Source of the DNA: Chiua virens
Taxonomy: Eukaryota > Basidiomycota > Agaricomycetes > Boletales > Boletaceae
Direction of reading: 5' to 3'
Length of the DNA stretch: 64,000 bases
NCBI GenBank assembly: GCA_019787685.1
Contig: JAHNUO010000019.1
Span: 124,001 to 188,000 of the forward strand
The position numbers and the translations under genes are program-made. Under the pieces are notes generated by a model. That model worked only from the letters and a program-made list of their open reading frames with translations, was not told the origin of the DNA and did not search any database. Positions 21,295-55,960 of this stretch are shown here, piece by piece (position 1 is the stretch's first letter; each line of letters begins with the position of its first letter).

Positions 21295-24200
21295 ATGGCT
21301 GGCTTCCTCCGAAAGAAAACGACCCTCTCAAAAAAATCATCCCTTTCTCCTCCTCCCCGCACCGACGACCCTCCACCGACCCTCCCCCCGCTCCTCCTCT
21401 CTTCCTCCCTCGACCCCGACCCCAGACCTGCGCCTACTCTCCCCCCCGCCGCGTCACCGCCCGTCCTCCCATCCGCCGATGTCCACACCCTCGGCGATGT
21501 CTGGGACCCGTGGACGGCCTTGGTCGACGGTCCTCGTCTAGATACACCTTCGGGTCCGTTCATCACCCACTTCCATCTTCACCCAGCTAGCAACGCTTCC
21601 CGGGATGTATCAAACACTCGTAACACCTCAGTCTCTCATCCGAACCCGGTTGCTACGGCACCCAAAACATCCACAAGACAGGTCCATGCTCTCCCTCCGA
21701 AAACCGACCCCCTTGGCAACCGTCCTCTCTCACCAAAACCATCTCCCCCCAGGCGTCCCTCCAGCCCTCCTGCCGTGGTTCGCGGTCAGGCCATGCCCCC
21801 TTCCACCTTCGACTTCGAAGAATCCTTATCCGCCGCCAACGTGACCTCGGTCGTCAATCAATTTCGTTCATATCCCCCACCCATACGGCATCACACTTCT
21901 CCCGCTCCACCTTCCCAAATGGCCTTCCAACACCCATCTTCGTCCGCTCCACACCGCCATCACACTCTGCCACAGAAACCCGGATCGAGTTCCAGTCTTT
22001 CTTCGAGTAGTCACAACACCGATGCCACCCGGAGGACCAACGGATCGTACAGCACATCTACTTCTGCCAGCTCAATCTCACCGGTCAATGAGGCGAGTCC
22101 CTCCTCCTTTTCTAGATCGATTTAGTAGTTCTTCATGGATGGTCCGGGCGTACCCAGACCGGCGTCGGGTAGTCCCCGGTGATTATCTTGCCGGCGTGCA
22201 ATGTCGCGAGTGGCGTGCTCCCGCTGTTGTTTGTCTCACTTTGTTTGACCCGCATTAACCATGTCCTCTATTAGGTAATTGACGTCAAACACCCAGCAGA
22301 GCGTCTAATAGATCCCGTCGGCTCACAACACTTCAATTCACTTCCTGTCCGTAAATGTTACATATTTTTCACCGCTAACGTCTTATAAATTGTCAGCCTC
22401 TCGCTAATGTCTCTTTACCGGCTCGCCCTCGCGGTTCATCCGTCGATTACAACCCATCCGTCGCTTCTTCCTCTTCACGTACTTTCACGATCTCTAACGC
22501 CGGCTCTCGAGCACATCGTCCTCCCACAGCACCTCCCACCAGCTATTCTGAGCGCGTCCGAACCCTTGCACCACAGTCTTCTCTCTCCAGCTTGGCATCC
22601 TCGTCAGCACACGTTGACACGCACTCGCGACCCCCAATGCTGTACGACATGCTTCGCTCAGGAAACCCAGACGCAGTGGCTCCTTTGCGCAGGGGTCCCC
22701 TCATTTTTGCTGCCACAGCTGCGCCACAACCCGCTGCTAAGGGTCCTCTGGCTTCACCGCCTGTCGAATACGCATCTCTCCAGCCCTCCTCTCCCCCGCG
22801 TCGCAGTGGCCCTGCCCCCTCCGCGCCGCGAGGGTCATTTCCTTCTGACCTGCGTTCCCGGGGCACTGTAACCGTCAGCCCGACGTTCTATTCCTCCGAG
22901 CTTCCGCCTTTGACTCGCAAGACGAGCAAGAACAATTTGCCCGCAGAGCATTCGCCAACCGTTGGACTCAGGGTCGATCCTGGATCTGAACACGCCCGAC
23001 GCGTCTTGACAAAGGCACGCCCTACCACCCCTCAAAAACCGGTCGTGCCATCTTTTCAGAAGGCCATTCCCGAACCGGGTGATCCTTTACTCCTAGATGA
23101 TGACCCGTTCGCGAAAACCGAAGGTGTGAGAATGCTGAGGCCCCAGGCCCGGCCATCTTCTAGAAGCGGTTCAACTTCCTCTGCAAGTCTACGTTTGAGC
23201 AAGGAAGATGGTTTTCGTAGCGAGGATGGACACGCCAAGTCCCCAAGTACTCCGCCGCCGCCGGCTCCTGGAACACCTTTTACTCCGGACGCACACGCCT
23301 CTTCCGCTCCCGAAAAGTCCCTACCCACACCGACGACCCCCGATGATTACAAGGCTGCTCGTCAACAACGTCGGGGTCTGTGGTTAGAAAAGGCTCCGCC
23401 ACCAGTAGTTGCCGAGGTCGCAAAACAATTATCCATGGAGCAGGAGAACGAGCAGGTGGAAGAACCCCCTCGGGAACCGACACCTCCGCCAACATATTTC
23501 CCGATCATGACATTCATGTCCAACACGAATCTTTTCCCACTGTTGCTGTCGTATTTGTCATACTCCGAGTGGCTGGCGCTCTACAGTGCGAACAAACAGA
23601 TTCCGGAATTGTTCCAAAGCAGAATTCTCCGTGAGTTCGTTCTCGAACGATACCTCGGTACAGTCGGGTATATGAAATGGGATTTTGAATGGGCTGAGTC
23701 ACTTGAGTTATCGTTGAAGGCAAGTTTGACATCTAATTCGCGCGCTCACATAATGACATTCATTAGGATCTGCATAACTACCTACGTGGCGTGGCCATGC
23801 CAGCACATCAGTATGCTCGTCTTTCTGCCGCGTACCTGCAACCTAAAGGAGCGAAGCGGGATGCTCCGGTCACGTCCGAAACACCAGATATACTTGCGCT
23901 GGCACTCACAACGCGGGCTTACACCCGAGTGGTTCTCCGTCTCCGTGCTCAAGCCGAGTCCGAGGCCAGGTACATCAAGACGCTGCGTTCGGCCGAATCA
24001 AATCAGGTTCCGAATCCTTCTCGTCCAGGCACCCGTCAACCCAGCGTCTCTAGCCGAGCTCCGTCGCCCACTTCTTCTCATTCCCATTCTGGTAATCATT
24101 CACATCGAAAGAATGAACGGAACCCAAGTTTCTCATCAGCGGTCTCCAAATTCAAATCGCCTCTCTATCGACCCGGGCGCGCTCCGGTATTGAGAGTGTT

Positions 24201-25138
24201 CGTGCCTTCCCCTGAGGGAGATTGGTTATCTGATGCGGGTGTCGTGGAATGTGAAGCCGAATTGAAACGTTCCGGTATTCTGAAACTTCTCCGAGTGGGA
24301 GATGTTGTGTGGGACGTTGCTGTCGGGGATGAAGGGAACCTCGGCCGACTGATGTGGGACGGGAGCTATCTTGTGGTGCGTGTCATCTTGAATTCGTATT
24401 ATCGAACAGCCTCAGACGTATGAATGGCAGGATCTGGATTATAGATACTCCCGTGTGGGTGAAGTGTCGCCATACTTCCACAGCTTGGCGTTCTCTCCAT
24501 CGTACTTCCATCGAGTCATTCGCATCGGTGGTTCTGCGACGCACAATCCCCATTGTAATCCCATCGTCTACCTTGACGTAAGTCCATGGGGACGCGAGAT
24601 TGCGGCCAATTTGCAGTTGTTGCAGGATCGGGCTCGAACGGAAACGTGCGTATTGAGTCAACAGGTGTTCGAAGCATGCTCACACTCCTTCCATAGACCT
24701 CATGGCGCATTGCACGATGTCGTTCGTTGGGTTCACCGGACCACGTTTACTATCCGCCCGCCCGTACCGCCCACACAATCGCAAACACACTCCCGATCGC
24801 GCGCTGTTCGGGTTCCTATTCCCAACGTTGAAGGATTCTACATCGATCCTGGCTGGTATGGCAAGGTTGTCCTCGAGTCGGAAGGAACACACGAAGGTCT
24901 GGCAGATCTTCAGGCGCGCTGCGGACCTGGCGTCTTCCCGCCTAGAGCGGAGTCGCTCGCCACCAAGATTCGGAACGAGAAGGAGAAGGACAACAGACGG
25001 GTGTGGCGGATCTTACGAGAAAAGAGGTACGTATTTCGTGCTGGTGTTACATGTGACGCCGGAGCTGATGCGCGCACAAACAGCCGTCCCGGGGAGATAT
25101 GGCTCCGGGCTGTGCAAGTCAGCGAACGCGTAATGTGA
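21295..25138 (+). CDS. Large conserved fungal protein of unknown function, Ser/Pro-rich N-terminus
   Basis: Six exons: 21295-22083, 22397-23719, 23767-24375, 24416-24645, 24697-25026 and 25084-25138. All lengths join in frame for about 1111 aa. The first 700 residues or so are low-complexity Ser/Pro/Thr-rich and probably disordered; a conserved-looking segment follows (TYFPIMTFMSNTNLFPLLLSYLSYSEWLALYSANKQ begins near 23490), which has a faint F-box-like look, and the C-terminal third is well structured with WGREIAANLQLL and PGEIWLRAVQVSERVM. The second intron starts with GC (23720), and the same GC donor occurs in the duplicate. The first intron donor (GTCAAT, 22084) is the weakest part of the model. 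I do not recognise a catalytic function. Three damaged copies lie at 34.8, 41.1 and 53.3 kb. Confidence 0.78.
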
Positions 25139-25628: not shown

Positions 25629-28600
25629 TTAATCAACTTGTACAGTTGCACAACAGTGTGACTCACATATGAGATTCTTCGAAATCAGATCCATGATTGC
25701 CACTGTCATCCCCTCTTCATCTTTGGGATCATGTTGATGAGCTAGCAGAGTGACTGCTTGTTGAACTTTGGCACATGTGCCAGATGATTTGTACAATTTG
25801 GCAGCTGTTGCAACTGATTCTGGATGACCTTGCTGGTGGAGATGGAAGGAGTGCACCATAATGATGGCAGAATCTATACAGATATTGAAGGGGTGGGAAT
25901 GGGATACCAAATAAGACTGACCAATGCCCAACAAAAGGGCTTTTTTCCATGGATTCAAGGTCCATGGGAGCTGAATGATACAAAGGAATATGAGAAATGT
26001 TCTAACATGAAAATAGTGCACATACCATTGATTTGGAGGGAGTTGAGTGTTTTGTGGCACCATATGGAACTTGGTCCTGATGTAAAAATAATGTGAGAAT
26101 CAAAATTTAAATATAAGAAAGTTGATAAATAAAAAAACCTGTGGAGAGTGTAGCAACTATATGAAATAACATTAATCATTGATTTGGTCAAAGTGAGATA
26201 GTAGAACAAACCTCCTGCAAAATAAAGATGAGTATGAGGTAAAAAAGAGAATGATTGGGTGTTCACCTGCTAAAAAAGGAGATGGAGCAGAAAGAGTATT
26301 CAATGATATTGCATACAAGGCTTCAAAGATGTCTTACATCCTGAGGGATATTAGAGAGAACAAGATGGATTCAATAAATTGTAATTAAGACTTACAAGCT
26401 ATGAATGAGAGAACATGGTGGGAGCAGACATGGACATGGATCAGAATCATTCTGAGATCTCCAAGAACAGTCAGGCCACTTACATACTATGAATGAGAGA
26501 ACATGGTGGGAGCAGACATGGACATGGATCAGAATCACTCTGAGACCTCCAAGAACAGTCAGACCACTTACATCCTATGAATGAGAGAACATGGTGGGAG
26601 CAGACATTCAGAATCACTCTGAGACCTCCAAGAACAATCAGACCACTTACATCCTATGAATGAGAGAACATGGTGGGAGCAGACATGAACATGGATCAGA
26701 ATCACTCTGAGACCTCCAAGAACAGTCAGACCACTTACAAGCTATGAATGAGAGAACATGGTGGGAGCAGACATGCACATGGATCAGAATCACTCTGAGA
26801 CCTCCAAGAACAGTCAGACCACCTACATCCTATGAATGAGAGAACATGGTGGGAGTAGACATGAACATGGTGGGAGCAGACATGGACATGGATCAGAATC
26901 ACTCTGAGACCTCCAAGAACAGTCAGACCACTTACATGCTATGAATGAGAGAACATGGTGGGAGCAGACATTCAGAATCACTCTGAGACCTCCAAGAACA
27001 GTCAGACCACTTACATGCTATGAATGAGAGAACATGGTGGGAGCAGACATTCAGAATCACTCTGAGACCTCCAAGAACAGTCAGACCACTTACATCCTAT
27101 GAATGAGAGAAGATGGTGGGAGCAGACATGGACATGGATCAGGATCACTCTGAGACCTCCAAGAACAGTCAGACCACTTACAAGCTATGAATGAGAGAAT
27201 ATGGTGAGAGAAGACATGGACATGGATCAGAATCACTCTGAGACCTCCAAGAACAGTCAGACCACTTACAAACTATGAATGAGAGAACATGGTGGGAGCA
27301 GACATGGACATGGATCAGAATCACTCTGAGACCTCCAAGAATGGTCAGACCACCTACATCCTATGAATGAGAGAACATGGTGAGAGCAGACATGGACATG
27401 GATCAGAATCACTCTGAGACCTCCAAGAACAGTCAGACCACTTACATCCTATGAATGAGAGAACATGGTGGGAGCAGACATGGATCAGAATCACTCTGAG
27501 ACCTCCAAGAACAGTCAGACCACTTACATACTATGAATGAGAGAACATGGTGGGAGCAGACATGGACATGGATCAGGATCACTCTGAGACCTCCAAGAAC
27601 AGTCAGACCACTTACATCCTATGAATGAGAGAGCATGGTGGGAGCAGACATGGACATGGATCAGAATCACTCTGAGACCTCCAAGAACAGTCAGACCACT
27701 TACATCCTATGAATGAGAGAACATGGTGGGAGCAGACATGAACATGGATCAGAATCACTCTGAGACCTTCAAGAACAGTCAGACCACTTACAGCCTATGA
27801 ATGAGAGAACATGGTGGGAGCAGACATGGACATGGATCAGAATCACTCTGAGACCTCCAAGAACAGTCAGACTACTTACATCCTATGAATGAGAGAACAT
27901 GGTAGGAGCAGACATGGACATGGATCAGAATCACTCTGAGACCTCCAAGAACAGTCAGACCACTTACAACCTATGAATGAGAGAACACGGTAGGAGCAGA
28001 CATGGACATGGATCAGAATCACTCTCAGACCTCCAAGAACAGTCAGACCACCTACAACCTATGAATGAGAGAACATGGTGGGAGTAGACATGGACATGGA
28101 TCAGAATTACTCTCAGACCTCCAAGAACAGTCAGATCACTTACAGCCTATGAATGAGAGAACATGGTGGGAGCAGACATGGACATGGATCAGGATCACTC
28201 TGAGACCTCCAAGAACAGTCAGACCACTTACATACTATGAATGAGAGAACATGGTGGGAGCAGACATGAACATGGATCAGAATCACTCTGAGACCTCCAA
28301 GAACAGTCAGACCACTTACTTCCTATGAATGAGAGAACATGGTGGGAGCAGACATGGACATGGATCAGAATCACTCTCAGACCTCCAAGAACAGTCAGAC
28401 CACCTACAACCTATGAATGAGAGAACATGGTGGGAGTAGCCATGGACATGGATCAGAATCGCTCTGAGACCTCCAAGAACAGTCAGACCACTTACTTGCT
28501 ATGAATGAGAGACCATGGTGGGAGCAGACATGGACATGGATCAGAATTACTCTCAGACCTCCAAGAACAGTCAGACCACCTACAACCTATGAATGAGAGA

Positions 28601-30569
28601 ACATGGTAGGAGCAGACATGGACATGGATCAGGATCACTCTGAGACCTCCAAGAACAGTCAGACCACTTACATACTATGAATGAGAGAACATGGTGGGAG
28701 CAGACATGGACATGGATCAGAATCACTCTGAGACCTCCAAGAACAGTCAGACCACTTACATCCTATGAATGAGAGAACATGGTAGGAGCAGACATGGACA
28801 TGGATCAGAATTACTCTGAGACCTCCGAGAACAGTCAGACCACTTACATGCTATGAATGAGAGAACATGATGGGAGCCAACATGGACATGGATCAGAATC
28901 ACTCTGAGACCTCCAAGAACAGTCAGACCACTTGCATACTATGAATGAGAGAACATGGTGGGAGCAGACATGGACATGGATCAGAATCACTCTGAGACCT
29001 CCAAGAACAGTCAGACCACTTACAAGCTATGAATGAGAGAACATGGTGGGAGCAGACATGCACATGGATCAGAATCACTCTGAGACCTCCAAGAACAGTC
29101 AGACCACTTACTTCCTATGAATGAGAGAACATGGTGGGAGCAGACATGGACATGGATCAGGATCACTCTGAGACCTCCAAGAACAGTCAGACCACTTACT
29201 TCCTATGAATGAGAGAACATGGTGGGAACACCAATGGACATGTATCAAAATCACTCTATATTTCTCAATTTGATCACATTTCTTACCTGCCAATATTTGT
29301 AAGCACTTCACATCCATATACAAATTCCACACTTTCTTACATTGACATGTGGGAACCATATACCTATTCTTCTCATCAAGGACTCTTGCTCTTTCTGATC
29401 AAATCTCCCTACTGGAGAAAATTTGCCAGCAATGAATGGCACCAAAGTTCTATGACATATGTCATGTGTAATTCACTAAACAATCCTGAACATTAAAAAG
29501 GGGTCACATACTTGTCAACAGCATATTTCACACAAAGCATGATGTTTGCACTTTGTGTGGTCACAAACAGCATTCCCAAACTTTCATCATCCAAAGCAGC
29601 TGCAGTCTTTTCTAGTACAATCCTGCATCCTTCATTGGACTTCTGCATATCTGCAAAAAAAATCACATAATGAGGTATCTCCATGTCACCTACTCCAATT
29701 TCATACCAACCTTTGACTTCAGCATACACTTTGGGGGGATTTTTTCTTTTTTGCAATCTTTCCCAAATTGTACTATTCTTTACCATGCTTTTCTCAAGTT
29801 CCTTCACCTTGGCAAGTCTTTCCTGTTCAGGTAGTTTCTTGTCCTTGGCTGTCAACGCAGCCACTGCCAACACTCGCAATGCATCACATTTTGTGAACAC
29901 AACCACAACAGGCACTGTCCCGAAAATACAATAAAAATAACACAATGAATGGACATATAAGAAAAGCCTACCATTTCCTGTTTCACATTCATCAAAAAAC
30001 CTTTCCTCCGCGGTCAAGATAGCGCGGTGTATCTGATCCATCGGGATACAGTACCTATCCAACAGTTGTGGTTAGCACGCCGTAAGTGACTCTCTGTGTT
30101 TACCATATAGCGTGGACACGCTTCTTGAGGAATGTCGTCTTAGCTCGCTCGGCGACAAAGTCCTTCATCTTGTTAAACTCGTCGACACTACCGGCTTCAA
30201 ACCCACGGGAGTCGTGGAAGACAAATCCGGGGTTGCTTCGAAAGACCATCTCGTTCTCGATGTTGTGTTCTCCCCGCTTGGGACATGTGAGGTGGTGATA
30301 ACGAGGGTTGATGGTAATCCTGGTATTCACCTCTGCAGACTCTTCGATCTGTGCCAGATTGACCTGATCACGGGCCACCAATCCACTTGTGAGATCAGAA
30401 ACCCCAAATTGGCATACAAACATACCTTTTTCCCTTCTCCGTCATAGATCTCTGGATTCTCCTTCGAATTACAGATTTGCTTGAGAAGTGTCGTCTTGCC
30501 AGCGTTGGCCCGGCCGATGACAAGAATTCGGAACTGTCCAAATTTCTGTCTGATATCGTCGATCTGCAT
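25629..30569 (-). CDS. P-loop GTPase with a 33-unit array of single-codon microexons (GTPase 1)
   Basis: GTP-binding protein of a family common in Agaricomycetes. G1 is GRANAGKT (residues 19-26), G3 is DSRG in VFHDSRGFEAG, and G4 is TKCD. Exons, high to low: 30426-30569, 30331-30363, 30104-30276, 29972-30054, 29711-29914, 29512-29650 and 29341-29449 (ending WFPHVN at phase 0); then 33 exons of 3 nt from 29200 to 26396; then 3-nt exons at 26338 (GAT), 26267 (CAG) and 26212 (GAG); then 26139-26156 (LLHSPQ), 26026-26076, 25922-25970 and 25629-25873. Every phase fits; with all microexons the product is 451 aa from 47 exons. The helical C-terminal region follows the array. No stop or frameshift seen. 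The start is the ATG before QIDDIRQKFG; the frame is open further upstream, so an earlier start is possible. Function unknown; a recognition or allorecognition role is speculation. Confidence 0.82.
26396..29202 (-). repeat. 33-unit tandem array: 85-nt intron plus one hypervariable codon
   Basis: Unit length is 88 in most cases (variants 79, 82 and 109). On the minus strand each unit reads GTAAGT, a near-invariant body with CTGAT about 41 nt from its end, then TCATTCATAG, then 3 variable nt. First-base plus-strand coordinates of the codons: GAT at 28760, 27880, 27704, 27616, 27446, 27358, 27094, 26827, 26651, 26572; TAT at 28936, 28672, 28232, 27528, 26484; GTT at 28584, 28408, 28056, 27968; CTT at 29024, 27182, 26739, 26396; GAA at 29200, 29112, 28320; CAT at 28848, 27015, 26936; GCT at 28144, 27792; CAA at 28496; TTT at 27270. 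mRNA order runs from 29200 to 26396. Donor variants are GTAGGT in several units and GCAAGT before 28936; every acceptor ends TAG. Confidence 0.93.
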
Positions 30570-38085: not shown

Positions 38086-38269
38086 CGGCCCGCAGCGTTT
38101 TTCTTTTTCGAGTTATAGTGTATGCAAGTTTTGTACGATGGCATTGGTTTGTAGTGTATGAATGTGTTTTTCTTTTCACCAACAACAGCTTGGCAGCACT
38201 TTTTCGAGGTTCCCATCGACAAACCACTTTCGTTCTACAATGAAACCATCTATCGGACTCAAAGGTCGA

Positions 38270-38560
38270 TGGTAAACCCGGTACTCACCTCCGCAGACTC
38301 TTGGATCTGTGCCGGATCGACCTGACTGCAGACGATCAATGCACCAGCGAGATCAGAAATCCAAGGATAGCATCCAAACGCACCTTTCTTCCCTTTCCAT
38401 CATAGATCTCTGGATTCTCCCTCGAGTTACAAATTTGCTTGAAAAGGGTCATCTTGCCAGCGTTGGCCCGGCCGATGACAAGGATTCGGAACCGTCCGAA
38501 TCTCTTTCTGATGCTCGTCAACCTGCATGGTAAGAATTGAAGCGGGTGGCTTGATGGATA
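38270..38560 (-). pseudogene. N-terminal fragment of a GTPase gene
   Basis: Carries the first exon of the GTPase family (IRKRFGRFRILVIG, then GRANAGKM) and the short second exon ending AQIQESAE. The Ser/Thr of the Walker A motif is Met, and everything after exon 2, including any microexon array, is missing. The neighbouring DNA switches to a chromodomain-gene fragment. Confidence 0.8.
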
Positions 38561-41130: not shown

Positions 41131-44100
41131 CATCTTCGTCCGCTCCACAAAGCCCGGATCGAGTTCCAGTCTTTCTTCGAGTAGTCACCAACGGTTTGTA
41201 CAGCACATCTACATCTGCCAGCTCAATCTCACCGGTCAACCCCTCCTCCTTTTCTAGATCGATTTGGTGGTTCTTCATGGATGGTCCGGGTGTACCCAGA
41301 CCACTTCAATTCACTTTTTGTGCGTAAATGTTACATATTTTCTACCGCTAACATTTTATAAATTGTCAGCCTAGCTCGCTAATGTCTCTTTACTGGCTCG
41401 CCCTCGCGGCTCATCTGTCGATCACAACCCATCCGTCGCTTCTTCCTCTTCGCGTACTTTTACAACCTCTAACGCCGGCTCTCGAGCACATCGTCCTCCC
41501 ACCAGCTATTCTGAGCGCGTCCGAACACTTGCATCACAGTCTTCTCTCTCCAGCTTGGCATCCTCGTCAGCACACGTTGACACGCACCCGCGACCCCCAA
41601 TGCTGTACGACATGCTTTGCTCAGGAAACCCAGACGCAGTGGCTCCTTTGCGCAGGGGTCCCCTCATTTTTGCTGTCACAGCGGCACCACAACCCGCTGC
41701 TAAGGGTCCTCTGGCTTCACCACCCACGAGGCCCACGAACGTGCAGAATGCCTATCCTTCGCCGCCTGTCGAATACGCATCTCTCCAGCCCTCCTCTCCC
41801 CCGCGTCGCAGTGGCTTTGCCTCCTCCGCGCCACAAGGGTCGTTTCCTTCTGACCTGCGTTCGCGGGGTACTGTAACCACAGTCCCACGTTCTATTCCTC
41901 TAAGCTTCCGCCTTTGACTCGCAAGACGAGCAAGAACAATTTGTCCGCAGAGCATTCACCAACCATTGGACTCAGGGTCGATCCTGGATCTGAACATGCC
42001 TGACGCGTCTTGACAAAGGCACGCCCCACCACCCCTCAGAAACCGGTCGTGCCATCTTTTCAGAAGGTCATTCCCGAACCGGGTGATCCTTTACTCCTAG
42101 ATGATGACCCGTTCGCGAAAACCGAAGGTGTGAGGGTGCTGAGGCCCCAAGCGCGGCCATCTTCTAGAAGCGGTTCAACTTCTTCTGCAAGTCTACGTTT
42201 GAGCAAGGAAGATGGTTTTCGTAGCGAGGATGGACACGCCAAGTCCCCAAGTACTCCGCCGCCGCCGGCTCCTGGAACACCTTTTACTCCGGACGCACAC
42301 GCCTCTTCCGCTCCCGAAAAGTCCTACTCACACCGACGACCCCCGATGATTACAAGGCTGCTCGTCAACAACGTCGGGGTCTGTGGTTGGAAAAGGCTCC
42401 GCCACCAGTAGTTGCCGAGGTCGCAAAGCAATTATCCATGGAGCAGGAGAGCGAGCAGGTGGAAGAACCGCCTCGGGAACCGACACCCCCGCCAACATAT
42501 TTCCCGATCATGACATTCATGTCCAACACGAATCTTTTCCCACTGTTGCTGTCGTATGCGTCATACTCCGAGTAGCTGGCGCTCTACAGTACGAACAAAC
42601 AGGTTCCGGAATTGTTCCAAAGCAGAATTCTCCATGAGTTCGTTCTCGAACGATACCTCGGTACAGTCGGGTGTATGAAATGGGATTTTGAATGGGCTGA
42701 GTCACTTGAATTATCGTTGAAGGCAAGTTTGACATGTAATTCGCGCGCTCACATATAATGACATACTCATTAGGATCTGCATAACTACCTACGTGGCGTG
42801 GCCATGCCAGCATATCAAGATCCTCGTCTTGCTGCCGCATACCTGCAACCTAAAGGAGCGAAGCGGGATACTCCGGTGACGTCCGACACACCAGATATAC
42901 ATGCGCTGGCACTCGCAACGCGGGCTTACACGCGAGTGGTTCTCCATCTCCGTGCCCAAGCCCAGTCCGAGGCCAGGTACATCAAGACACTGCGTTCGGC
43001 CGAATCGAATCAGGTTCCGAATCCTTCGCGTCCAGGCACCTGTCAACCCAGCGTCTCCAGCCGAGCTCCGTCGCCCACTTCTTCTCATTCCCATTCTGGT
43101 AATCATTCACATCGAAAGAATGAACGGAACCCAAGTTTTTCATCAGCGGTCTCCGAATTCAAATCATCTCTCTATCGGCCCGGGCGCGCTCCGGTATTGA
43201 GAGTGTTCGTGCCTTCCCCTCAGGGAGATTGGTTATTTGATGCGGGTGTCGTGGAATGTGAGGCCGAATTGAAACGTTCCGGTATTCTGAAACTTCTCCG
43301 AGTGGGAGATGTTGTGTGGGACGTTGCTGTCGGGGATGAAGGGAACCTCGGCCGACTGATGTGGGACGGGAGCTATCTTGTGGTGCGTGTCATCTTGAAT
43401 TCGTATTATCGAACAGCCTCAGACGTATGAATGGCAGGATCTGGATTATAGATACTCCCGTGTGGGTGAAGTGTCGCCATACTTCCACAGCTTGGCGTTC
43501 TCTCCATCGTACTTCCATCGAGTCATTCGCATCGGTGGTTCTGCGACGCACAATCCCCATTGTAATCCCATCGTCTACCTTGACGTAAGTCCATGGGGGC
43601 GCGAGATTGCGGTCAATTTGCAGTTGTTGCAGGATCGGGCTCGAACGGAAACGTGCGTATTGAATCAACAGACGTTCGAAGCATACTCACACTCCTTCCA
43701 TAGACTTCATGGCACGTTGCACGATGTGGTTCGTTGGGTTCACCGGACCACGTTTACTATCCGCCCGCTTGTACCGCCCACACAATCGCAAACACACTCC
43801 TGATCGCGCACTGTTCGGGTTCCTATTCCCAACGTTGAAGGATTCTACATCGATCCCGGCTGGTATCAAAGTTGTCCTCGAGTCGGAAGGAACGCACGAA
43901 GGTCTGGCAGATCTTCAGGCGCGCTGCGGACCTGGGGTCTTCCCGCCCAGAGCGGAGTGGCTCGCCACCAAGATTCGGAATGAGAAGGAGAAGGACAACA
44001 GACGGGTGTGGCGGATCTTACAAGAAAAGAGGTACGTATTTCGTGCTGGGGTTACATGTGACGCCGGGGCTGATGCGCGCACAAACAGCCGTCCCGGGGA

Positions 44101-44620: not shown

Positions 44621-47600
44621 TTAATCAACATGTACAATTGCACAAAAGTGTGGCTCACATATGAGATTCTTTGAAATCAGATCCATGATTGCCACTGTCA
44701 TCCCCTCTTTATCTTTGGGATCATGTTGACGAGCTAGCAGAGTGACTGCTTGTTGAACTTTGGCACATGTGCCAGATGATTTGTACAATTTGGCAGCAGT
44801 TGCAACTGATTCTCGATGACCTTGCTGGTGGAGATGGAAGGAGTGCACCATAATGATGGCAGAATCTATACAGATATTGAAGGGGTGAGAATAGGATACT
44901 AAACAAGACTGACCAATGCCCAACAAAAGGGCTTTTTTCCATGGTTTCAAGGTCCATGGGAGCTGAATTATACAAAATAGTATGAGAAATGTTCTAGCAT
45001 GAAAATAGTGCACATACCATTGATTTTGAGGGAGTTGAGTGTGTTGTGGCACCATATGGAACTTGTCGCTGATGTAAAAAGATTGTGAGAATCAAAATTT
45101 GAATATAAAACACTTGATAAATAAATAAACCTGTGGAGAGTGTAGCAACTATATGAAATGACATTAATCATTGATTTGGTCAAAGTGAGACAGTACAACA
45201 AACCTCCTGCAAAATAAAAATGAAAATGAAGTAAAAAAAAACATGATTGGATTTCACCTGCTAGAAAATGGAGATGGAGCAGAAAGAGTATTCAATGATA
45301 TTGGATACAAGGCTTTAAAGATGTCTTACATCCTGAGGGATATTAGAGGGAACAAGATGGGTTCAATAAATTGTAACTGAGACTTACAAGCTATGAATGA
45401 GAGAACATGGATCAGAATCACTCTGAGAACCTCCAAGAACAGTCAGACCACTTACATCCTATGAATGAGAGAACATGGATCAGAATCACTCTGAGACCTC
45501 CAAGAACAGTCAGATCACTTACAAGCTATGAGTGAGAGAACATGGTGGGAGCAGACATGGACATGGATCAGAATCACTCTCAGACCTCCAAGAACAATCA
45601 GACCACTTACTTGCTATGAATGAGAGAGCATGATGGGAGCAGACATGGCCATGCATCAGAATCACTGTAAGACCTCCAAGAACAGTCAAACCACTTACTT
45701 CCTATGAATGAGAGAACATGGTGGGAGCAGACATGAACATGGATCAGAATCACTCTGAGACCTCCAAGAACAGTCAGACCACTTACATACTATGAATGAG
45801 AGAACATGGTGGGAGCAGACATGGACATGGATTAGAATCACTCTCAGACCTCCAAGAACAATCAGACCACTTACAGCCTGTGAATGAGACAACATGGTGG
45901 GAGCAGACATGGACATGGATCAGAATCACTCTGAGACCTCCAAGAACAGTCAGACCACTTACAGTCTGTGATTGAGAGAACATGGTGAGAGCAGACATGG
46001 ACATGGATCGGAATCACTCTGAGATCTCCAAGAGCAGTCAGACCACTTACAGCCTATGAATGAGAACATGGTGGGAGCAGACATGGCCATGGATCAGAAT
46101 CACTCTGAGACCTCCAAGAACAGTCAGACCACTTACTTGCTATGAATGAGAGAACATGGTGGGAGCAGACATGGCCATGCATCAGAACCACTCTGAGACC
46201 TCCAAGAACAGTCAGACCACTTACTTGCTATGAATGAGAGAACATGGTGGGAGCAGACATGGCCATGCATCAGAATTACTCTGAGACCTCCAAGAACAGT
46301 CAGACCACTTACAATCTATGAATGAGATGACATGGTGGGAGCAGACAGGACATGGATCAGAATCACTCTGAGACCTCCAAGAACAGTCAGATCACTTACT
46401 TGCTATGAATGAGAGAACATGATGGGAGCAGACATGAACATGGATTAGAATCACTCTGAGACCTCCAAGAACAGTCAGACCACTTACTTGCTATGAATGA
46501 GAGAACATGGTGGGAGCAGACATGAACATGGATCAGAATCACTCTGAGACCTCCAAGAACACTCAGACCACTCACAGCCTATGAATGAGAGAACATGGTA
46601 GGAGCAGACATGGACATGGATCAGAATCACTCTGAGACCTCCAGGAACAGTCAGACCACTTACAGCCTATGAATGAGAACATGGTGGGAGCAGACATGGC
46701 CATGGATCAGAATCACTCTGAGACCTCCAAGAACAGTCAGACCACTTACAAGCTATAAATGAGAGAACATGGTGGGAGCAGACATGGACATGAATCAGAG
46801 TCACTCTGAGACCTCCAAGAACAGTTAGACTACTTACTCGCTATGAATGAGAGAACATGGTGGGAGCAGACATGAACATGGATCAGAATCACTCTGAGAC
46901 CTCCAAGAACAGTCAGACCACTTACAGCCTATGAATGAGAGAACATGGTGGGAGCAGACATGGACATGGATCAGAATCACTCTCAGACCTCCAGGAACAG
47001 TCAGACCACTTACTCGCTATGAATGAGAACATGGTGGGAGCAGACATGGCCATGGATCAGAATCACTCTGAGACCTCCAAGAACAGTCAGACCACTTACA
47101 TCCTATGAATGAGACAACATGGTGGGAGCAGACATGGACATGGATCAGAATCACTCTCAGACCTCCAAGAACAGTCAGACTACTTACATCCTATGAATGA
47201 GAGAACATGGTGGGAGCAGACATGAACATGGATCAGAATCACTCTCAGACCTCCAAGAACAGTCAGATCACTTACTTGCTATGAATGAGAGAACATGATG
47301 GGAGCAGACATGAACATGGATCAGAATCACTCTCAGACCTCCAAGAACAGTCAGACCACTTACAGCCTATGAATGAGAGAACATGGTGGGAGCAGACATG
47401 GACATGGATCAGAATAACTGTGAGACCTCCAGGAACAGTCAGACCACTTACAGCCTATGAATGAGAGAACATGGTGGGAGCAGACATGGACATGGATCAG
47501 AATCACTCTGAGACCTCCAAGAACAGTCAGACCACTTACATCCTATGAATGAGAGAACATGGTGGGAGCAGACATGAACATAGATCAGAATCACTCTGAG

Positions 47601-49173
47601 ACCTCCAAGAACAGTCAGAACACTTACTTCCTATGAATGAGAGAACATGGTGGGAGCAGACATGGACATGGATCAGAATCACTCTGAGACCTCCAAGAAC
47701 AGTCAGACCACTTACAATCTATGAATGAGGGAACATGGTGGGAGCAGACATGGACATGGATCAGAATCACTCTGAGACCTCCAAGGACAGTCAGACCACT
47801 TACATACTATGAATGAGAGAATGTAATAGGAGCAGACATGCACATGGATCAGAATCACTCTATATTTCTCAATTTGATCACATTTCTTACCTGCCAATAT
47901 TTGTAAGTACTTCACATCCATATAGAAATTCCACACTTTCATACATTGATGTGTGGGAACCATATACCCATTCTTCTCATCAAGGACTCTTGCTCTTTCT
48001 GATCAAACCTTCCTACTGGAGACAATTTGCCACCAATGAATGGCACCAAAGTTCTATGACATATATCATGTGTAATTCACTAAACAATCCTAAACATTAA
48101 TAAAGGGTCACATACCTGTCAACAGCATATTTCATACAAAGCATGATGTTTGCACTTTGTGTGGTCACAAACAGCATTTCCAAACTTTCATCATTCAAAG
48201 CAGCTGCAGTTTTTTCTAGCACAATCTTACATCCTTCATTGGACTTCTGCATATCTGCAAAAAAATTCACATAATGAGATACCTCCATCTCACCTACTCC
48301 AATTTCATACCAACCTTTGACTTCAGCATACACTTTGGGGGGGTTTTTTCTTTTTTGCAATCTTTCCCAAATTCTACTATTCTTTACCATGCTTTCCTCG
48401 ACTTCCTTCACCTTGGCAAGTCTTTCCTGTTCAGGTAGTTTCTTCTCCTCGGCTGTCAACGCAGCCACTGCCAACACTTGCAATGCATCACATTTTGTGA
48501 ACACAACCACAACAGGCACTGTCCCGAAAATACAATAAAAATAACACAATGAATGGACATTTAAGAAAAACCTACCATTTCCTGTTTCACATTCATCAAA
48601 AAACCTTTCCTCTGCGGTCAAGATAGCGCGGTGTATCTGATCCATCGGGATACAGTACCTATCCAACAGTTGTGGTTAGCACGCCATAAGTGACTCTGTG
48701 TGTTTACCATATAGCGTGGACACGCTCCTCGAGGAATCTCGTCTTAGCTCGCTCGGCGACAAAGTCCTTCATCTTGTTAAACTCGTCGACACTACCGGCT
48801 TCAAACCCACGGGAGTCATGGAAGACAAAGCCGCGGTTGCTTCGGAAGACCATCTCGTTCTCGATGTTGTGTTCTCCCCGCTTGGGACATGTGAGGTGGT
48901 GATAACGAGGGTTGATGGTAATCCTGGTATTCACCTCTGCAGACTCTTCGATCTGTGCCAGATCGACCTGATCACGGGCCACCAATCCACTTGTGAGATC
49001 AAAAACCTCAAGTTGGCATACAAACATACCATTTTCCCTTCTCCGTCATAGATCTCTGGATTCTCCTTCGAATTACAGATTTGCTTAAGAAGTGTCGTCT
49101 TGCCAGCGTTGGCCCGGCCGATGACAAGGATTCGGAACCGTCCAAATTTCTGTCTGATATCGTCGATCTGCAT
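44621..49173 (-). CDS. P-loop GTPase with a 29-unit array of single-codon microexons (GTPase 2)
   Basis: Paralogue of the gene at 25629-30569 and, unlike most of the duplicated block, still open. First exon 49030-49173 with GRANAGKT; G3 DSRG and G4 TKCD are kept. The WFPHIN exon is 47945-48053. Then come 29 exons of 3 nt from 47804 to 45388, three more 3-nt exons outside the repeat at 45330 (GAT), 45258 (CAG) and 45204 (GAG), and exons 45131-45148 (LLHSPQ), 45018-45068, 44914-44962 and 44621-44865. Phases match GTPase 1 throughout, giving about 447 aa if every microexon is used. Outside the array the two proteins differ by scattered substitutions; within it the codon order is almost entirely different. 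Biological role unknown. Confidence 0.82.
45388..47806 (-). repeat. 29-unit tandem array: intron plus one hypervariable codon
   Basis: Same unit as the array at 26396-29202, spacing mostly 88 with variants 86, 87, 68 and 67. Codons by first plus-strand coordinate: GCT at 47452, 47364, 46926, 46664, 46576, 46051, 45875; CAA at 47276, 46488, 46400, 46225, 46137, 45611; GAT at 47540, 47188, 47100, 45456; CTT at 46750, 45523, 45388; TAT at 47804, 45787; ATT at 47716, 46313; GAA at 47628, 45699; CGA at 47014, 46838; ACT at 45963. Donors are GTAAGT except GTGAGT before 46576. Acceptors end TAG, or CAG in the units at 45875 and 45963. The two shortest introns are the last two in mRNA order. Confidence 0.93.
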
Positions 49174-55679: not shown

Positions 55680-55960
55680 TATCGGACTCAAAGGTCGATG
55701 GTAAACCCGGTACTCACCTCCGCAGACTCTTGGATCTGTGCCGTATCGACCTGATTGCAGACGATCAGTGCACCAGCGAGATCAGAAATCCAAGGATAGC
55801 ATGCAAACGCACCTTTCTTCCCTTTCCGTCATAGATCTCTGGATTCTCCGTCGAGTTACAAATTTGCTTGAGCCGGGCCATCTTGCCAGTGTTGACCCAG
55901 CCGATGACAAGGATTCGGAACCGTCCGAATATCTTTCTGATGCTCGTCAACCTGTATGGT
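55680..55960 (-). pseudogene. N-terminal fragment of a GTPase gene (right duplicate)
   Basis: Counterpart of 38270-38560, more decayed: the Walker A region reads GWVNTGKMAR instead of GRANAGKTTL, losing both the conserved Ala and the Ser/Thr. Only the first two exons are present. Confidence 0.8.

Follow-up and report, generated by a model that had tools for sequence, protein, structure and literature searches.

The 64,000-nucleotide (nt) window analysed here, C19:124001-188000 of the 48.3-Mb genome of Chiua virens, contains a GTPase gene with an array that resembles a minisatellite. We conclude with high confidence that this array is a row of 33 single-codon exons in phase 0, or 36 with three constant ones, which would be spliced intron by intron and would add a hypervariable segment to the GTPase, one residue per unit. 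The gene and at least 20 sister genes each hold a row of near-identical short predicted introns split by single, highly variable codons; these codons are likely spliced together, which would give a different segment, of ~5 to 67 residues, in almost every copy.

The array within the window gene

Six ordinary exons, which run from 30569 to 29341 on the minus strand, encode the GTPase portion upstream of the array. The features of the gene are as follows, in window positions:

30426..30569, minus strand: exon 1 of the GTPase gene, with the P-loop GRANAGKT (gene model; match to Pfam MMR_HSR1)
30104..30363, minus strand: exon 2, with the DSRG motif (gene model)
29972..30054, minus strand: exon 3 (gene model)
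29711..29914, minus strand: exon 4, with the TKCD motif (gene model)
29512..29650, minus strand: exon 5 (gene model)
29341..29449, minus strand: exon 6, ending in WFPHVN, phase 0 (gene model)
26396..29202, minus strand: array of 33 predicted single-codon exons and 32 near-identical introns, predicted peptide EELYHDYVQVEYAVVDADDYDDFLDHHDLDDYL (unit parsing)
26338..26340, minus strand: constant single-codon exon GAT (D), kept in 11 of 12 aligned array tails
26267..26269, minus strand: constant single-codon exon CAG (Q), AAG or GAG in some paralogs (array-tail alignment)
26212..26214, minus strand: constant single-codon exon GAG (E) (array-tail alignment)
26139..26156, minus strand: 18-nt exon LLHSPQ with a weak donor, GTTTTT (paralog comparison; six residues here in the homolog P0002)
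26026..26076, minus strand: 51-nt exon of 17 residues (gene model; 17 residues here in P0002)
25629..25970, minus strand: last exon, C-terminal helical region (gene model; helices in a structure model of P0002)

The product scored 25.7 bits against MMR_HSR1 (cut-off 21.9) and carries GRANAGKT, DSRG and TKCD, which we take to be the GTPase motifs G1, G3 and G4. This profile and these motifs mark the gene as a putative TRAFAC-type GTPase. In the same Pfam scan, NACHT reached 14.5 bits, below its cut-off of 26.7, and no ankyrin family was listed at E up to 1.

Direct parsing of the array bore out the original prediction of 33 units, each a complete intron plus exactly 3 nt. On the minus strand, CATAG-NNN-G(T/C)(A/G)NGT occurs 33 times between 29202 and 26396. 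The codons read, in array order, GAA GAA CTT TAT CAT GAT TAT GTT CAA GTT GAA TAT GCT GTT GTT GAT GCT GAT GAT TAT GAT GAT TTT CTT GAT CAT CAT GAT CTT GAT GAT TAT CTT. The intron is 85 nt long in 27 of the 32 cases and 79, 76, 76, 106 and 76 nt long in the other five, and a single donor is of the GC type (GCAAGT, after the TAT at 28938-28936). The constant GAT, CAG and GAG exons, which are preceded by introns of 55, 68 and 52 nt unrelated to those of the array, extend the row to 36 consecutive single-codon exons. The 18-nt exon was recognised by aligning 12 array tails, 11 of which reach the tail, the stretch chosen for locus L028 having missed it.

The spliced gene model is a stop-free frame of 485 amino acids. 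This frame and the DNA-level tests below support the proposed phase-0 fit and a hypervariable segment placed after the GTPase domain and before the C-terminal helical region. The unit spacings of 79, 82 and 109 given in the original prediction are real, and none of them is divisible by 3. The repeat is therefore not read as one continuous coding stretch, as had been argued from these spacings; moreover, when the exon frame is carried on into the intron, 1101 of 1334 units run into a stop within 60 codons.

Coding and splicing signatures across the genome

The array is not unique: the genome holds at least 57 separate clusters (40 + 17) of array sequence, from which 48 arrays were parsed. The exact pattern ATTCATAG-NNN-GTAAGTG matches the genome 1391 times and its reversed control not once, which is more than chance would give. 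The same two flanks enclose 0-2 bases once genome-wide, and 4-12 bases twice, against three times in the control. In the parsed arrays, for which donor and acceptor were located separately with fuzzy matching and no assumed exon length, the exon is 3 nt long in 1373 of 1382 cases and the remaining nine measure 7 nt (four), 21 nt (two), 4, 5 and 2 nt. The count excludes donors that have no acceptor within 30 nt, so a few units are missing from it; 32 of the 33 units of the window array were recovered. A parse of 39 sources gave 1053 of 1060 exons at 3 nt; its intron lengths took 22 positive values between 53 and 136 nt, in every class modulo 3, and three negative values that are parsing artefacts. 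The 5- and 2-nt exons belong to two units of L031 that lie close together (C2:2027655 and 2027743), where the frame is broken; this copy may be inactive or spliced differently.

Among the loci that were fetched with flanks, GTPase exons lie upstream in 20 of 20 and C-terminal exons downstream in 19 of 20 (L016 gave no match). A stretch of the last GTPase exons was found in 11 of 26 further loci, whose margins are too narrow for a fair test.

The codons bear the mark of coding sequence. Stop codons account for 6 of 1373, compared with a mean of 122.7 and a minimum of 99 in 2000 shuffles of first and second bases within arrays; when each codon is counted once per array, there are 5 stops against 30.3 expected (minimum 17). 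In the exact genome-wide pattern, TAA and TAG occur in 0 and TGA in 5 of 1391 codons. The six in-frame stops (five TGA, one TAA) are located in L024, L028, L043, L045 and L053, with two in L053, and the stop in L024 corresponds to a CGA in its sister array L023, a change expected from CpG decay.

Codon choice is also restricted. The third base is G or C in 38 of 1391 codons, 25 of them TGG, and of 243 residue types present at least twice within an array, 222 are written with one codon. In the choice of synonyms, GGA prevails over GGT (214 versus 15), CGA over CGT (88 versus 0), CTT over CTA (174 versus 5) and ATT over ATA (10 versus 0), and TTT is found 82 times and TTA once. This choice appears mostly to avoid new splice sites, since NGT in front of GT would offer a rival donor and NTA in front of G would form a TAG acceptor. 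Codons that create CAG run counter to it (GCA 24, CCA 30, TCA 11, ACA 6), as does AGA (31), and such avoidance leaves the near-absence of C and G at the third position unaccounted for. The consensus intron of the 85-nt family is free of CpG, and a final C or G is very rare in the array codons; CpG loss may be behind the scarcity of final C, but not that of G.

The introns carry the expected signals, although they are repeats of a few ancestors and their counts are not independent observations. Among 1302 introns of 60-110 nt, 1291 start with GT and 7 with GC (an AG end was required by the parser). The central part of 1156 of them contains CTRAY, mostly 44-46 nt from the 3' end, compared with 199 after shuffling. 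The GAT, CAG/AAG/GAG and GAG exons recur in both intron families (nine 85-nt stretches and the 82-nt stretches of L020 and L026), while the introns around them have strongly diverged. An exon length that is fixed and an intron length that is not, the scarcity of stops, the branch-point motif, the conserved constant exons and the intronless relatives described below make splicing of the window array very likely, as judged from DNA.

The relatives come from a sample, in which 120 of the 664 matches of the first protein search were listed and 7998 candidates scored; one more relative was added by using the C-terminal part of P0002 as the query. The annotated Chiua proteins P0001 and P0011 end at the array (the terminus of P0001 is WLPHVKVGELYII), and many other genome-predicted proteins end shortly past WFPH or jump there. 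Among the matches listed, 15 JGI proteins have a WFPH-type motif, and seven of these (P0002, P0015, P0022, P0065, P0121, P0122 and P0127) continue to the C-terminal part. P0002, P0015, P0022, P0065, P0121 and P0122 come from contigs of 1.1-2.3 kb. P0002, P0015, P0022 and P0065 probably derive from complementary DNA (cDNA), since they are stop-free across the positions of five ordinary Chiua introns.

Between WFPH and the next conserved part, a variable segment of 15 to 39 residues (ends set by eye) is present in seven proteins, namely six from JGI and P0123; it reads ERFEVFREFVFEFAN in P0002 and RYYYDDVRDLDVLDLLRDLDVLLLLKREKLDR in P0065. Residues shared before, inside and after the segment number 49/60, 11/32 and 72/80 for P0065 and P0122; 34/59, 8/27 and 53/77 for P0065 and P0123; 37/59, 8/28 and 58/77 for P0122 and P0123; 36/60, 4/15 and 44/75 for P0002 and P0121; and 46/60, 6/15 and 52/80 for P0015 and P0022. 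Past its segment, P0002 continues with LDRA, 6 residues, 17 residues and then LPFGI, and these tail lengths match the genomic prediction of CTT, GAT, CAG, GAG, the 18-nt exon and the 51-nt exon.

Variable codons between near-identical introns

The original prediction held that the codons vary while the introns are close to invariant, and this extends well beyond the window: mean codon diversity exceeds that of each single intron position in 35 of the 40 arrays with at least 10 full units. The introns compared are identical in L020 (17) and L030 (25), yet these arrays contain six and eight different codons; an 18th L020 intron adds about two differences. Over ~1.06 kb upstream of the array, identity between the gene bodies of L009, L010, L011 and L013 is 98.2-99.2%, yet their codon strings resemble one another no more than after shuffling, the nearest pair, L009 and L010, being matched by 29 of 200 shuffles. 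In all, 2 of 1128 pairs of the 48 arrays clearly share a codon string (L042/L044 and L023/L024), as defined by a local score of at least 8 and z above 5, a score that short arrays can hardly reach.

Pairwise comparison shows that this variability is uneven. Between L030 and L033, 33 of 81 codon bases differ, compared with 11 of 2308 other bases. For L042 and L044, the counts are 0 of 57 and 20 of 1617, and for L023 and L024, 5 of 69 and 56 of 2030. The rather stable codons of the last two pairs suggest that the change does not look like steady hypermutation. L042 (C11) and L044 (C82), with identical codon strings and surroundings that differ by 1.2%, are perhaps two haplotypes of one gene.

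To account for such codons, we lean slightly towards selection alone, in which unequal exchange and gene conversion between arrays would homogenise units and introns while diversifying selection keeps the codons, as in the Podospora WD-repeat genes. Between genes, introns show about the same similarity as the gene bodies, individual arrays draw on small codon sets, and close paralogs have unrelated codon strings, all of which fits this account. On the other hand, the identical introns of L020 and L030 demand a very fine exchange, and the stability of the codons in L023/L024 and L042/L044 does not agree with a steady process. Codons are also little linked to neighbouring intron variants (mean z of 0.12-0.77 by distance bin), except perhaps within 21 nt downstream, where z is above 2 for 4 of 16 variants. 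In a test of exact intron-boundary conversion on 22 arrays, linkage between intron variants within 15 nt inside introns was 0.054 compared with 0.039 after shuffling, and linkage across codons showed no clear excess over the shuffled level.

A bolder reading, which we rank behind exchange plus selection and regard as unlikely, is a dedicated codon-diversifying system that would rewrite or swap the 3-nt exons, or copy whole introns with their ends exactly at the splice sites, and leave the introns identical. If so, each GTPase paralog would gain a new peptide from a small alphabet of nearly one codon per residue, and the genome would hold a germline repertoire comparable in its logic to the diversity of adaptive receptors.

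Inclusion of the codons

Several points weigh against the splicing of every codon into a hypervariable segment. Splicing of the array is predicted here from DNA. The 48 arrays contain six stops as well as nine exons that are not 3 nt long, and some copies may be broken or may skip units. Eight of the 15 JGI proteins (P0014, P0017, P0018, P0019, P0040, P0057, P0069 and P0109) end within or soon after the WFPH motif, as genomic DNA or unspliced RNA would. The putative cDNA origin of others is read from uninterrupted protein frames, and P0121 and P0122 are partial. Furthermore, full inclusion and partial skipping of codons would look alike in the sequence, and a possible role in nonself recognition is suggested by analogy.

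The codons might be real but chiefly alternatively spliced, so that each transcript carries a differing subset and one gene provides a combinatorial repertoire, which we consider possible though doubtful. All exons of the window array are 3 nt long and in phase 0, and the frame would survive whichever of them are used; the occasional TGA unit could be tolerated by skipping it; and the truffle genes discussed below offer a reported precedent (PMC4986451, PMC3689799, PMC10197012). Much of the diversity is, however, already encoded in the DNA, as the rarity of shared codon strings among array pairs indicates. It is very improbable that the array is a tandem repeat in one long intron that is removed whole, with exon 6 joined to the downstream exons and the 3-nt sites unexpressed: skipping the array would preserve the frame, the NCBI Suillus predictions P0041 and P0083 link WFPH to the C-terminal part with few residues between, and the eight truncated JGI proteins do not cross the array, but whole removal predicts no selection on the 3 nt, where stops are depleted about twentyfold and the length is kept almost throughout, and seven intronless relatives hold 15-39 extra residues at the array position.

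In the reading that we prefer, with the codons spliced in one by one, the short introns would be excised in order by intron definition during transcription, since a single 3-nt exon could scarcely serve two spliceosomes at once. Most codons would enter the messenger RNA, and isoforms would be possible since a skipped subset leaves the frame intact. Gene copies would owe their diversity chiefly to codon content, not to splicing alone. The weakest step concerns function: the segment between the TRAFAC-type GTPase domain and the helical region probably offers a surface for recognition or binding that is under diversifying selection, and it may take part in nonself recognition, as its hypervariability and the analogy to fungal NLRs suggest.

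Neighbouring copies, known systems and implications

A second gene of the same family is present in the window, with its own array of about 28-31 units and a codon string unlike that of the first:

44621..49173, minus strand: second GTPase gene (homology-based extent), whose array lies at 45382-47861

Near-identical open reading frames at 23791-24423 and 42798-43430 neighbour the two GTPase genes. The second gene and these paired frames suggest a segmental tandem duplication of about 19 kb. Two further minus-strand stretches, at 38265-38524 and 55795-55953, resemble GTPase exon 1 with 57-72% identical residues and no array was found adjoining them; they are possibly remnants or other relatives.

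The original prediction stated that no gene built in this way had been described. This does not hold for codon-sized arrays as a kind: the nank/NLR genes of Tuber melanosporum are reported to contain multiple or tens of codon-sized (3-bp) microexons that are alternatively spliced (PMC4986451, PMC3689799, PMC10197012). Both systems have tens of 3-nt exons in tandem and an expanded fungal gene family. The truffle is an ascomycete with NLR-type genes whose diversity is credited to alternative splicing, while Chiua virens is a basidiomycete (Boletales) with a GTPase in place of NACHT-ANK and with its diversity in the codons of each copy. Among the open-licence papers listed by our searches, the statement stands for the GTPase family, the lineage and the codon-written diversity, which, like the scale, were not found described there, and none of these papers was seen to report codon-sized exon arrays in Boletales or in GTPases.

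The microexons of the Tuber NACHT-ANK genes were reportedly described by Iotti et al. in 2012 (doi 10.1016/j.funbio.2011.11.009). In Schistosoma, the micro-exon genes (MEGs) have exons of 6-36 nt and secreted products, and are not known to have hypervariable exons within near-identical introns. MEGs and the Chiua arrays share runs of short symmetrical exons and variable proteins; the Chiua array exons, nearly all of 3 nt and in the window gene in phase 0, fall below the MEG size range. The Podospora WD-repeat NLR-like family is similar in that near-identical repeats with few variable positions are exchanged within and between genes, but there the repeat is protein, whereas in Chiua the conserved part is intron and the variable codon alone would be expressed. 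Immunity-related GTPases (IRG, for example Irga6) also count among the closest known systems. Introner-like mobile introns insert in many unrelated genes and leave target-site signs; the 20 flanked Chiua loci all belong to one gene family.

If our reading is correct, a protein region is built one residue per exon in dozens of genes, and codon-sized exon arrays are present in two distant fungal lineages and in unrelated gene families. On this reading, gene predictors miss the array segment, where P0001 and P0011 end. Two questions become testable: what a spliceosome does with 36 single-codon exons in a row, and by what route codons diverge while the introns around them stay identical. Should the segment serve as a recognition surface, the arrays would represent a large overlooked repertoire in mushrooms.

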